The translations under genes and the position numbers were made by a program. A DNA stretch of 64,000 nt, from positions 1-64,000 of the forward strand of contig JACYLQ010000048.1 in assembly GCA_015272395.1 (NCBI GenBank), given 5' to 3'. Positions 42,742 through 58,969 of the stretch are shown here, piece by piece (the stretch's first letter is position 1; every line of letters begins with the position of its first letter). Under the pieces are notes generated by a model. It ran no database searches and was not told where the DNA came from. It saw nothing but the letters and a program-made list of their open reading frames with translations. The DNA is from Calothrix sp. C42_A2020_038. Its GTDB lineage: Bacteria > Cyanobacteriota > Cyanobacteriia > Cyanobacteriales > Nostocaceae.

Positions 42742-45093
42742 TCAGCACTGTATTTTGAGGCGCCGTTCAATAGCGTTAAGAAAGTTTAAGCTTATTTCTT
42801 CAATCGTAACTCCAATTAAAGTTTGGTTATCAGTTGTTAAAACCTGTAAACCAGTGTCGAAATTACCGACCTTGCCTAGTTTTTGCCAACAATTAGTAAG
42901 GTATTGGCTTAAGTGTGATTCCCAAGCAGATTGCTGTGCTGGAGACACAGAGACTACTATTCTGGCGCCACTTTCACCAAACAACAATTCATCCCAACGT
43001 AAATTTGGCGAATTAGGTGGTATTACTGAAATTTCGGCACCAAGCTGACTCGATATGCAACACTCTGCCAGTGCAACAGCCAAGCCACCTTCGGAACAGT
43101 CATGAGCGGAATGCACCCAGCTAAGACGAATTCCTTGACGGCAAACTTTTTGAACTCGGCGTTCTAAATCAAAATCGATACGTGGCGGTTTACCTGCAAT
43201 AGTATGATGAATCGTTGCTAAATATTCAGATGCTCCGAGTTGGGTTTTAGATTCGACTGGTGTACCTAGTAAGTAAATTAAGTCACCTTGATTTTGCCAC
43301 CCTTGACCACAAATATGATTTAAATCGTCTATTGTGCCAATCATCCCGACTACAGGGGTTGGATATATAGCTTGAGGATTACCTTGAGAATCAAGAGTTT
43401 CATTGTATAAAGAAACATTTCCACCAGTTACAGGAGTATCTAGTTCGCGGCAAGCTTCAGCTAAACCACGACAAGCTTGAGCTAATTGCCAATAACCAAT
43501 CGGTTTTTCTGGACTACCAAAGTTTAAATTATCTGTAACTGCCAAAGGTTCGGCACCAACACAACTAAGATTACGTGCAGCTTCTGCAACAACTGCCTTA
43601 GCACCTTCTAATGGGTCAAGATAAACGTAACGTGGATTGCAATCTACAGTGGCAGCAACACCCAATTTTGGATTAGCTTTGGGGAAATGGCGATTTTCGA
43701 GGGGACGTAAGCGTAAAATTGCGGCATCGGCGCCACCTGGAAGCATAACTGTATTATTCTGGACTTGGTGGTCATACTGACGGTAAACCCAGCGTTTAGA
43801 AGCGATGCTAGGTGTATCGAGTAAGGTTAGTAAAACATCATTCCAACTTAACTTTTTACCTTGTACCTCAATACCGTTGGCTGTACATTTAGGCAACAAT
43901 TCAGGTGTCCATTGCCAAGCTTTGCGTGCGTATTCAGGTGGTTCTTGAAGTAACTGACGTTGATATATTGGTGTATTTTCTGCCAGAGCAAGAGCAGGAA
44001 TTTCAGCGGCAATTTTTCCCTGGAATAAAATCCTAACAATTGGCTGTGCAATTACAGTACCTGCAACAACAGCATGAAGTCCCCAGCGATGGAAAATATC
44101 GACTAACTCCTGTTCACGTCCTTTGTGGGCAACAAATAACATTCGTTCTTGCGACTCGGAAAGTAGGTACTCATAAGGCACCATTCCCGTTTCCCGCACT
44201 GGAATTTTATCTAAATTAAATTCGATTCCAACTCCACCTTTAGCCGCCATTTCCGCAGTCGAACAAGTTATACCTGCTGCTCCCATATCCTGTGCGGCGA
44301 CTACGGCGCCTGTTTTGAATGCTTCCAAGCAAGCTTCAATTAGGGATTTTTCTAAAAATGGGTCGCCCACTTGTACAGCTGGACGGTCGTCAATTGATTC
44401 ATCACTGAGTTCAGCACTCGCAAAACTGGCGCCTCCCATACCATCGCGTCCAGTTGTGGAACCAACATACAATACAGGGTTGCCAATTCCAGAGGCGGCG
44501 GATTTAACGATTTCCGGTGTTTCCATTAACCCCAGTGCCATCACATTAACCAAAGGGTTGCCAGAATAAGCTGGGTCAAAATAGACTTCACCACCAACAG
44601 TGGGCACCCCAACACAATTACCGTAGTGAGAAATACCTGCAACTACACCTTGAAATAATCTTTGAGTTTTAGAATCGTCTAATGAACCAAACCGTAGTGA
44701 ATTTAGTACAGCAATGGGACGCGCCCCCATTGTAAAAATATCTCTCAATATACCACCAACACCTGTAGCGGCGCCTTGAAATGGTTCAACCGCAGAAGGA
44801 TGGTTATGGGATTCGATCTTGAATGCTAGTTGTAGTCCATCACCAATGTCAACAACACCTGCATTTTCACCGGGACCGACAAGAATACGCCTACCTGTAG
44901 TTGGAAATTGTTTTAACAGTGGTCGAGAATTTTTATAGCAGCAGTGTTCAGACCACATGACACCAAACATCCCCAACTCTGCTTTGTTGGGATGGCGCCC
45001 TAACCTGTTAACGATTTCTTGATACTCTTCGGGTTTAATACCTTCCGATGCGATTTCTTGAGGAGAAAACGGAGGTTGAGAGGAGACAGTCAT
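42742..45093 (-). CDS. purL: Phosphoribosylformylglycinamidine synthase subunit PurL
   Basis: A 783-residue small-type PurL, the ATP-dependent subunit that works with PurS and PurQ. Key segments are [15 protein letters not shown], the ATP/Mg loop [20 protein letters not shown], and [13 protein letters not shown] at the start of the second half. [12 protein letters not shown] and [16 protein letters not shown] follow. Length is normal for this class (about 750-780). It converts FGAR to FGAM. The start ATG gives [19 protein letters not shown], typical of the family in cyanobacteria. Upstream lies the triplicated small-RNA array. Confidence 0.96.
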
Positions 45094-45246
45094 GATGATG
45101 CACCATAGGGACAGAGCAATATTTTACCCATTTTTGATGCGTTCATGTTGTTTAAAGGAGTTGCAGAGTAATTACCTTCCTAACAGTTTTGTATAAAAAT
45201 AAACTCTTTATCAATAGGGATAAAACAGATTGAACGACGATAGCGT

Positions 45247-45262
45247 TGTGACGAGAATCACA
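45247..45262 (+). promoter_or_regulatory. CRP-type box before small RNA A
   Basis: TGTGACGAGAATCACA matches TGTGA-N6-TCACA exactly. It ends 58 bases before the conserved GAACTCTAGCCGAGTC block, and the same distance recurs at the other copies. Confidence 0.7.
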
Positions 45263-45315
45263 CTGCTGCATGATTAAGATCGTCTCCTTATAGTTGCCGT
45301 ACTGAAATAATAAAG

Positions 45316-45392
45316 ACACTGAACTCTAGCCGAGTCATTAATAGGGAACACACTAAGCGCCGACAGCCTCTTTCGAGACTGCCGGTTTTTTG
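45316..45392 (+). ncRNA. Tandem small RNA, copy A
   Basis: A conserved block of about 47 bases (GAACTCTAGCCGAGTCATTA, then ATAGGGAACACACTAAGCGC) contains a mini-hairpin ACTC-TAGCC-GAGT and a single-stranded middle. It ends in the hairpin CCGACAGCCTC / GAGACTGCCGG followed by T6 (45386-45391). A -10-like AATAAT lies at 45306-45311. No coding potential is seen. Identity unknown. The layout recalls the NsiR1 tandem RNAs, but I cannot confirm it. Confidence 0.7.
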
Positions 45393-45449
45393 TTTTTATA
45401 TGGCAATACTTAATACAAATTAGACGTGGCACTACATAATGATTTGGCT

Positions 45450-45465
45450 TGTGATGTTAATCACA
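45450..45465 (+). promoter_or_regulatory. CRP-type box before small RNA B
   Basis: TGTGATGTTAATCACA, an exact TGTGA-N6-TCACA site, is centred about 63 bases before the inferred transcription start of copy B, the spacing of a class I CRP site. Confidence 0.7.
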
Positions 45466-45520
45466 GCTTTGCATGACTAAAATCGCATCATAATCAGGTA
45501 TAAACGAGCATAATAACAAC

Positions 45521-45597
45521 TAACTGAACTCTAGCCGAGTCATTAATAGGGAACACACTAAGCGCCGACAGTCTTTTTTGAGACTGCCGGTTTTTTG
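45521..45597 (+). ncRNA. Tandem small RNA, copy B
   Basis: Same block as copy A beginning at 45526, with a -10-like CATAAT at 45509-45514 and no good -35 box, which fits activator dependence. The terminator stem around GCCGACAGTCT / AGACTGCCGG is followed by T6 at 45591-45596. Confidence 0.72.
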
Positions 45598-45644
45598 TTG
45601 CCGAAACCCCAAACTTTGTGGTTCCACACCAAAATTATTGATGT

Positions 45645-45660
45645 TGTGATCACAGTCACA
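45645..45660 (+). promoter_or_regulatory. CRP-type box before small RNA C
   Basis: TGTGATCACAGTCACA, an exact TGTGA-N6-TCACA site, ends 60 bases before the conserved block of copy C, as for copy B. Confidence 0.7.
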
Positions 45661-45715
45661 AGTATAAATGATAAAAATCGCATCATAATAGGTAGCTTCA
45701 GTGCATAATAACAAC

Positions 45716-45792
45716 TAACTGAACTCTAGCCGAGTCATTAATAGGGAACACACTAAGCGCCGACAGACTAATTCCAGACTGTCGGTTTTTTA
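45716..45792 (+). ncRNA. Tandem small RNA, copy C
   Basis: Conserved block from 45721, with -10 CATAAT at 45704-45709. Upstream it shares AAATCGCATCATAAT with copy B. The terminator CCGACAG / CTGTCGG has compensatory changes relative to the other copies and is followed by T6 (45786-45791), which supports a folded RNA. Confidence 0.72.
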
Positions 45793-45987
45793 TTTTTGAT
45801 AAATAAAATTTCCCCACAACTTGTTGGTAATTCGACAGTGCTGCCAAGAAAACAACAGGTTGTGGGGAGTTACAATTTTAATTGATGTTTTTATCAAGGC
45901 TTAGTGTCTACAGAAATGCAGCACCTCAAAATAGCGTTGCACTTGAATCGACTTGACTAGTCAAAAAAGTACAAACAAACCGTTGGA

Positions 45988-46473
45988 TTATGACATTCCT
46001 TGAATGATGTAATCAAAGTAGGGTGCAGCTTCGGTTGCATCTTCAGCAGTGAGTAAATCCAGAGAGGCAGTTTTGAGACAGCTAATCGCTTCTACCATTC
46101 CAGGTAAAGGTACGCCCAGAGAATTGTACATTTCGCGGGCGCCGACAATACCAATTTTTTCAATTGGCTCAATATCACCCGCGAGAACACCGTAAGTGAC
46201 TAAACGTAAGTACCATCCAAAATCACGGATGCACTGAGCGCGCTCACGTTGTCCGTAAGCATTTCCCCCGGGAGAGATAAAATCGGGACGCTTGCGCCAC
46301 AGCTGCTTGGTTGCTTCTTGGACTATCTTCTTCTCATTTTCACTCAGGGTAGAAACAATGCGTACTCGCTGTTCGCCTGTTGTCAAAAAGTCCTTGATAC
46401 TATTGAGTTCGCCACTGCTGGGATACCGCAGTTCGTCGTCAGCTTTGAGAATAACTTTGCTTACTACAGTCAT
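45988..46473 (-). CDS. apcD: Allophycocyanin alpha-B chain
   Basis: A 161-residue phycobiliprotein. The chromophore Cys is in [47 protein letters not shown] and the C-terminal [13 protein letters not shown] are diagnostic for ApcD rather than ApcA. It is a terminal emitter of the phycobilisome core that passes energy to the photosystems. The gene stands alone, 195 bases from the small-RNA array and divergent from rlmD. Confidence 0.94.
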
Positions 46474-57804: not shown

Positions 57805-57884
57805 AAAAGCAAAAAGCACTTAGACGTGTGACCGTGTTTCCACTCTAAGCGCTTTTCGTTTTCAACTTACTCCTCACACACCCC
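57805..57884 (-). ncRNA. Yfr2-like small RNA, copy 1
   Basis: Minus-strand RNA of about 80 nt. It starts GGGGTGTGTGAGGAGTAAGT and ends in a hairpin. The stem arms are 57844-57856 and 57812-57824, the loop is GTGGAAACACGGTCACACG, and a T-rich tail follows. Promoter: -35 TTGCCA (57911-57916) and -10 TATTCT (57888-57893) with 17 bases between. The loop GGAAACA and terminator layout fit my recollection of the cyanobacterial Yfr2 family. The 5' GUGUGUGAGGAGU is complementary to the conserved core of Yfr1. Confidence 0.72.
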
Positions 57885-58527: not shown

Positions 58528-58604
58528 TATGGCAAAAAGCGCCTGGAAGTGTTACCGTGTTTCCACTCCAGGCGCTTTTCGTTCTCAACTTACTCCTCAC
58601 ACAC
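58528..58604 (-). ncRNA. Yfr2-like small RNA, copy 2
   Basis: Same organisation as copy 1. Promoter -35 TTGCTA (58634-58639), 17-base spacer, -10 TACTAT (58611-58616). The terminator stem arms at 58567-58579 and 58535-58547 (AAAAGCGCCTGGA on the plus strand) carry compensatory base changes compared with copies 1 and 3. Confidence 0.72.
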
Positions 58605-58696
58605 AACTCAATAGTAGTCTTTTTCAGATCAGATAGCAAATATGGTAAGTGACACTTTTCTATCTGTACATTACATTTGAAATTACTTAAAAATAA

Positions 58697-58775
58697 ATAA
58701 ACAAAAAGCGCTTGGACGTGTGACCGTGTTTCCACTCCAAGCGCTTTCCGTTCTTTCAACTTACTCCTCACACAC
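58697..58775 (-). ncRNA. Yfr2-like small RNA, copy 3
   Basis: Promoter -35 TTGCCA (58805-58810), 17-base spacer, -10 TATGCT (58782-58787). The RNA begins near GTGTGTGAGGAGTAAGTTGA. The stem arms are 58736-58748 and 58704-58716, the loop is GTGGAAACACGGTCACACG, and TTTTTGTTT follows. Copies 1 and 3 also share the spacer sequence AACAAGAGATAT. Confidence 0.74.
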
Positions 58776-58969
58776 TACTAAAGCATATCTCTTGTTGTTC
58801 CATATGGCAAGTATTTTGCGTGACAGTTTTGAAATTGGTTTATATAAGAGTTAGGAGTAGGGTCAGTAACGCGACTAGAAATAAACGAATAATTATACTG
58901 AGACTGATGATAAGAGCAAGATATAAAATTTTTCATCTTAATCCCGCGATGAGTAAGTGTAGGTGCATC

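Follow-up and report, generated by a model that had tools for sequence, protein, structure and literature searches.

In Calothrix sp. C42_A2020_038, three small transcription units, each preceded by an exact CRP-type box, lie between purL and apcD at 45247-45792 of the window (i. e. the whole analysed stretch of 64,000 nucleotides). We consider it fairly probable, judging from sequence comparisons, that cAMP-bound CrpA activates a multi-copy base-pairing sRNA here and that this sRNA represses secreted CAP-domain proteins. The array would deliver three copies of one trans-acting base-pairing sRNA of ~74 nt. cAMP-bound CrpA would bind a palindrome ~63 bp 5' of each start, acting as an activator rather than a repressor, and a probable second factor at a conserved element near -41 would help to bring in RNA polymerase; the promoter itself has a good -10 and lacks a clear -35. 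In the predicted RNA, a 5' hairpin is followed by the invariant single-stranded UUAAUAGGGAACACAC and then by a terminator; as each copy has its own terminator, the dose would be set by copy number. The single strand would pair with the 5' regions of some mRNAs for secreted CAP-domain (PF00188) proteins; in part of these the predicted site lies around the ribosome site or start codon, and in the rest at the very beginning of the leader. Such pairing would most likely block CAP translation; we infer this direction of control from the position of the sites. If this is true, the second messenger cAMP would be linked to secreted CAP-domain proteins.

Anatomy and conservation of the RNA

The features of the locus are as follows.

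42742-45093, minus strand: purL, divergent neighbour (NCBIfam PurL equivalog, above cut-off)
45247-45262, no strand: CRP box 1, TGTGACGAGAATCACA, exact TGTGA-N6-TCACA, conserved in relatives
45270-45284, plus strand: second conserved promoter element of copy 1, ATGATTAAGATCGTC, from column conservation
45306-45311, plus strand: -10 of copy 1 (AATAAT), 51.5 bp from the box centre
45318-45391, plus strand: sRNA copy 1, predicted transcript, start deduced from the -10
45360-45391, plus strand: terminator of copy 1, hairpin and T6
45450-45465, no strand: CRP box 2, TGTGATGTTAATCACA, exact TGTGA-N6-TCACA
45473-45487, plus strand: second element of copy 2, weaker, from the sequence by eye
45509-45514, plus strand: -10 of copy 2 (CATAAT)
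45523-45596, plus strand: sRNA copy 2, predicted
45565-45596, plus strand: terminator of copy 2, hairpin and T6
45645-45660, no strand: CRP box 3, TGTGATCACAGTCACA, exact TGTGA-N6-TCACA
45668-45682, plus strand: second element of copy 3, weaker, from the sequence by eye
45704-45709, plus strand: -10 of copy 3 (CATAAT)
45718-45791, plus strand: sRNA copy 3, predicted
45760-45791, plus strand: terminator of copy 3, hairpin and T6
45988-46473, minus strand: apcD (allophycocyanin alpha-type), convergent neighbour; its best family is ApcA, below cut-off, so the name is presumptive

The three sRNA copies form one direct-repeat family with spacings of 205 and 195, and the predicted transcript is ~74 nt for each. 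They share a 37-nt core, ACTGAACTC...ACACACT, which is 100% identical in all three (45318-45354, 45523-45559 and 45718-45754). T6 runs begin at 45386, 45591 and 45786, 3' of terminator hairpins with folding energies of -9.4, -12.9 and -10.9 kcal/mol for copies 1, 2 and 3. Each of the copies has 51.5 bp between its box centre and its -10. These data bear out an earlier sequence-only reading, which had described a three-copy array with a nearly identical block, T6 terminators and an exact TGTGA-N6-TCACA palindrome before every copy. Its distances of 58, 60 and 60 bases from palindrome to block are correct when measured to GAACTC (45321, 45526 and 45721), but not to 45316, 45521 and 45716, where it had placed the copies. 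It had also claimed that the terminator arms differ and nevertheless keep pairing. The arms do vary, but pairing is kept only in part, since copies 1 and 2 each hold one A.C mismatch.

Peptide coding by the unit, which that reading had denied, can be ruled out. ATG, GTG and TTG are absent from copies 1 and 3 and occur once in copy 2, at nt 56 within the terminator loop, and the linker 3' of the core is 7, 8 or 9 nt long in the relatives (86/86 sequences), which breaks the reading frame. Between the array and apcD, a 16-nt inverted repeat was also seen (45811-45826 and 45853-45868, 94% complementary, 26 nt apart).

From base composition, 0.07 exact boxes would be expected per 64 kb, compared with the three observed. 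The 6.53-Mb genome contains seven exact palindromes, three of them in the array (a backward control pattern gave two). Within its own genome the RNA is confined to the array, the next matches having E values of at least 1.8. A search of Rfam 15 in gathering mode returned no family over the array; in E-value mode the best scores there were 16.3 and 15.3 bits against gathering thresholds of 80 and 100. A plasmid search with the array locus gave no match.

When 386 genomes drawn from the whole phylum were searched with a covariance model, the RNA was detected in 48, and five families that do not belong to the order are represented among these; the filters were stricter in this search, and weak matches were lost. 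Among 150 related genomes, 88 carry the RNA (E <=0.001, own genome included). At the best 80 of 426 apcD loci it was found 69 times, always downstream of apcD and on the opposite strand; some of the 11 loci lacking a match end at contig edges. The window's genus and several others have arrays of 2-5 copies, and most positive genomes have a single copy. Two tandem copies were also observed in G399 (L222) of a distant family, which points to repeated formation of arrays.

Across 105 copies the 37-nt core is nearly invariant, whereas the flanks drift. The segment GGGAACACAC is conserved from Nostocaceae to distant families, apart from substitutions of single bases at the edge of the segment and from one genome that has GGGAATACAC. 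The loop and stem of the 5' hairpin are nearly invariant too, so covariation gives no information on this element. In the terminator stem, paired changes were found in 16 cells, a value that none of 500 shuffles equalled; the number of pairs with paired changes, five, was reached by 119 of the 500.

The CRP box and CrpA

The linkage of box and RNA was evaluated on 125 copies (107 and 21 collected, minus L046, which was not anchored, one duplicate and one that was too short), which are distinct but not independent by descent. The best box scored 10/10 in 50 of them, 9 in 68, 8 in six and 7 in one. A score of at least 8/10 was thus reached by 124/125 copies, as compared with 3.8% of shuffled upstream regions. 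Homologues entirely lacking the palindrome, which would have counted against the sequence-only reading, were not seen among these copies. The spacing from box centre to -10 was 51.5 bp in 101 copies, 52.5 in 13 and 50.5 in one (115 within 50.5-52.5 bp), with the -10 picked as the best match around the expected place, a procedure that favours constant spacing. Four copies have a spacing of 30.5, shorter by 21 bp, which corresponds to two turns of the helix. The remaining six have other spacings, and in three of those the best box lies 22 bp farther upstream.

Placing +1 at 12 nt past the first base of the -10 puts the box centre near -63.5, which is 2 bp away from the class I optimum of E. coli. 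The second element ATGATTAAGATCGTC lies ~22 bp 3' of the box centre and is kept in most copies. It was rejected as a regulon motif: with up to two mismatches it had 11 matches genome-wide against 31 for the control, i. e. no enrichment.

A CrpA orthologue was found in all 88 RNA-bearing genomes (E <=1e-80, next matches 1e-36 or weaker). All 15 of the 150 genomes that lack CrpA also lack the RNA (Fisher 5.7e-7, uncorrected for kinship). Within the family, 78 genomes have both, seven have CrpA and no detected RNA, and five have neither (p 1.8e-5, likewise uncorrected for kinship). The CrpA of the genome itself (L125) is 27% identical to E. coli CRP and keeps the R-E-T-V-x-R of the recognition helix, residue roles here and in the cAMP pocket being assigned as in E. 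coli CRP. Among the three own proteins aligned, NtcA reads R-V-T-V-T-R in the helix and a second paralogue lacks the pattern. In the cAMP pocket of L125, G-E and R-S are kept, and the T-S of the C-helix, which contacts cAMP in the E. coli protein, is replaced by V-N. L125 is presumably the orthologue of AnCrpA of PCC 7120, which according to the available text of PMC2633013 binds cAMP and the TGTGA-N6-TCACA consensus. Together, box linkage and CrpA co-occurrence lend computational support to the earlier proposal that the array encodes a CRP-controlled multicopy regulatory RNA between purL and apcD.

Could the locus be something simpler? The repeat-like layout would suit a non-functional tandem repeat or a set of terminator repeats. 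We regard this as extremely unlikely, because the core hardly changes while its flanks drift, the terminator covaries beyond all shuffles in the number of cells, and outside the window's genus the RNA is mainly single-copy. It is also conceivable, though very unlikely in our view, that the boxes are read by another protein of the CRP/FNR family, or that they act as repressor sites or serve purL. The genome encodes several members of this family, box 1 lies ~160 bp upstream of purL, and AnCrpA may also use non-canonical sites, as far as the accessible part of PMC2633013 indicates. On the other hand, among the three own proteins aligned (two further regulators are outside the alignment) only CrpA has the canonical helix, and the position of the box relative to the sRNA is kept in distant stretches with no detected purL or apcD next to the RNA (L212-L214, L216, L217, L219-L223).

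CAP-domain genes as candidate targets

The sequence-only reading had named no target; CAP-domain mRNAs are put forward here as candidates. Two separate pattern searches both led to secreted CAP-domain genes. As there are just 1-9 matches to this family (PF00188) per genome in 15 genomes, it is unlikely that it was met twice by chance. For GTGTGTTCCC, the exact complement of GGGAACACAC, the own genome has four sites outside the array, the same number as for the control, and the count by itself is therefore uninformative. One of these sites, however, lies at the predicted mRNA start of the CAP-long gene on C38 (10 nt), and this site or a shorter form of it is retained in orthologues. A -10 combined with TGTTCCC had one match in the own genome, at this CAP gene, and none for the control. 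Taken alone, the energy of the C38 duplex is weak (20/2000 shuffles were as strong). For the longer complement TGTTCCCTATTAA, one conserved extra site was found in 6/6 other members of the genus that were searched; it lies upstream of another CAP-domain gene, distinct from CAP-long. The own copy of this gene, on C1, has a match of 14 nt, extended by flanking pairs, which lies 31 nt upstream of the ATG and is identical with an earlier E=3.39 match of the own-genome RNA search. Its duplex has an energy of -33.1 kcal/mol, and none of 2000 shuffled targets was as strong.

Other leads were discarded. Within psaD of G027 and G157, GTGTGTTCCC is present but follows conserved codons, and PsaD was set aside as a target. 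Apart from the CAP sites, the TGTTCCCTATTAA matches outside the sRNA (60 stretches, among the matches listed) mostly look like chance or repeats of the TTCCCTGTTCCC type.

The complementarity was then evaluated for CAP genes of 15 genomes against each genome's own sRNA. Of 78 family matches, 75 were used (the fragments G056:C41 and C110 and the long G050:C90 were left out), and 73 were scored, two having no usable ATG. Runs of at least 10 nt were found in 9/73 CAP genes and in 0/99 other genes of the same stretches (p 3e-4); shuffled CAP regions gave 14/3650. The two lead gene groups described above account for seven of the nine. Outside these groups the figures are 2/63 against 0/99 (p 0.15), and both hits are adjacent paralogues in G018, whose matches overlap the start codon. 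The CAP-long site of G018 lies beyond the 150-nt test window and was counted as a miss. In G213 and G157, none of the scored CAP genes had a 10-nt run. Since there is no significant excess outside the lead groups, the proposal concerns particular CAP genes and not the whole family.

The CAP-long leader itself looks like a cis switch (in the own genome it spans L263 1533-1660, C38). In both leaders that were folded, the 5' GUGUUCCC pairs with GGGAAUAC of the same leader, and GGCAUAGG can pair with the start-codon CCUAUGCC. Comparison with Rfam riboswitches gave no credible match for this leader. Genomes with several sRNA copies (window's genus, G018, G025, G026) were all observed to have a CAP-long gene; a link between sRNA copy number and this target is possible, with kinship and the search threshold as confounding factors.

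Two alternative explanations bear on these sites. The RNA could be a CRP-controlled sRNA whose complementarity to CAP genes is incidental, its invariant segment acting on other mRNAs or binding a protein. This we regard as a serious but rather unlikely alternative. It is favoured by the 64/73 CAP genes that have no long run, by the non-significant excess outside the lead groups and by the near-invariance of the hairpin loop and stem in addition to the pairing segment. It does not readily account for the arrival of two separate searches at so small a family, nor for G054, where the seed of the sRNA ends in ACACAU (target AUGUGUUCCC) and is matched by AAUGUGUUCCC in the CAP leader; this compensatory change was seen once. 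It is likewise at odds with the CAP-long leaders that retain the site despite the loss of its internal partner. Of the 13 leaders (out of 16) in which the start was located, nine contain GGGAAUAC. The other four (L287, L289, L291 and L292) have lost it and keep 9-15 nt complementary to their own sRNA; for three of the four, this stretch is located no more than 27 nt from the ATG.

The same leaders are relevant for the second alternative, namely that the 5'-end motif is kept for cis pairing with GGGAAUAC and not for the sRNA. The presence of GGGAAUAC in most leaders and the pairing in both folds, one of which beats all 200 shuffles (z -2.9), agree with this explanation. The other fold, however, is no more stable than shuffles (about z -0.02), and preservation of the site after loss of the partner favours the sRNA as the reason for its conservation, which makes cis pairing alone quite unlikely. 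Both processes may also be combined: binding of the sRNA could free the inner strand, and GGCAUAGG would then close on CCUAUGCC.

Repression of CAP translation by the sRNA, the reading that we prefer, can be extended to a more far-reaching one, which we offer tentatively and as the less probable side of the question. According to this, cAMP, CrpA and the sRNA would form an ancient module that already existed before heterocyst formers and Thermosynechococcus-like cyanobacteria diverged, and would represent a deeply conserved output of CRP in the phylum, in which arrays arose repeatedly and independently. The module would silence secreted CAP proteins, in one leader type by capturing a 5'-end clamp that is otherwise paired beside the start-codon stem. 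The accessible text of PMC2633013 counts T. elongatus BP-1 among the genomes with crp.

Relation to known systems

CRP-regulated sRNAs are known from enterobacteria and vibrios, namely Spot 42, CyaR and McaS. The array would share with these the control of a trans-acting RNA by cAMP-CRP. It differs in phylum, sequence and targets, in having one box per copy, and in its conservation across orders. In cyanobacteria, the outputs of cAMP-CRP are poorly defined, and the array RNA may be one of the things that the cAMP signal really controls; for the nitrogen-fixation genes of PCC 7120 that had been ascribed to AnCrpA, no high-scoring sites were found, according to the available part of PMC2633013. 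A small conserved RNA with a near-perfect CRP box would also provide a clean reporter of cAMP signalling with a testable set of targets. Among the literature matches listed, such an RNA is not described in cyanobacteria (supplements and subscription papers were beyond reach, and the RNA may be present without a name in Table S3 of PMC4734099), nor is a role of secreted CAP-domain proteins in these organisms.

The accessible sections of PMC9045159 describe NsiR1 of Nostoc PCC 7120 as a short sRNA in a tandem array of near-identical copies with individual promoters, which represses mRNAs, with one predicted site in the translation initiation region. It lies upstream of hetF and has heterocyst-specific DIF promoters. 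The array studied here has three copies, each with an individual box, -10 and terminator, but it is situated between purL and apcD and not upstream of hetF, and it carries CRP boxes. The resemblance to NsiR1 arrays that the sequence-only reading had noted therefore applies to the layout, with its tandem copies and individual promoters, and not to locus or promoter type. TCCGGA, which we take to be the core of DIF (HetR-dependent) promoters, occurs six times in the window and not at all within 45200-45800.

ApcZ, another sRNA tied to allophycocyanin genes, is derived from a 3' end and regulates ocp (PMC8136909, as far as its text is available). Unlike ApcZ, the array RNA has its own putative promoter and is convergent with apcD. 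With Cyano-1 and Yfr1, whose motif is given as CACUCCUCACACC in the accessible part of PMC4734099, it shares being a small, widely conserved cyanobacterial RNA with an invariant motif; it differs from Cyano-1 (RF01701) in having no Rfam match. The window itself contains three Cyano-1 RNAs on the minus strand (57808-57883, 58531-58606 and 58700-58777), a second multi-copy sRNA cluster. RF01701 is presumably the Yfr2 family.
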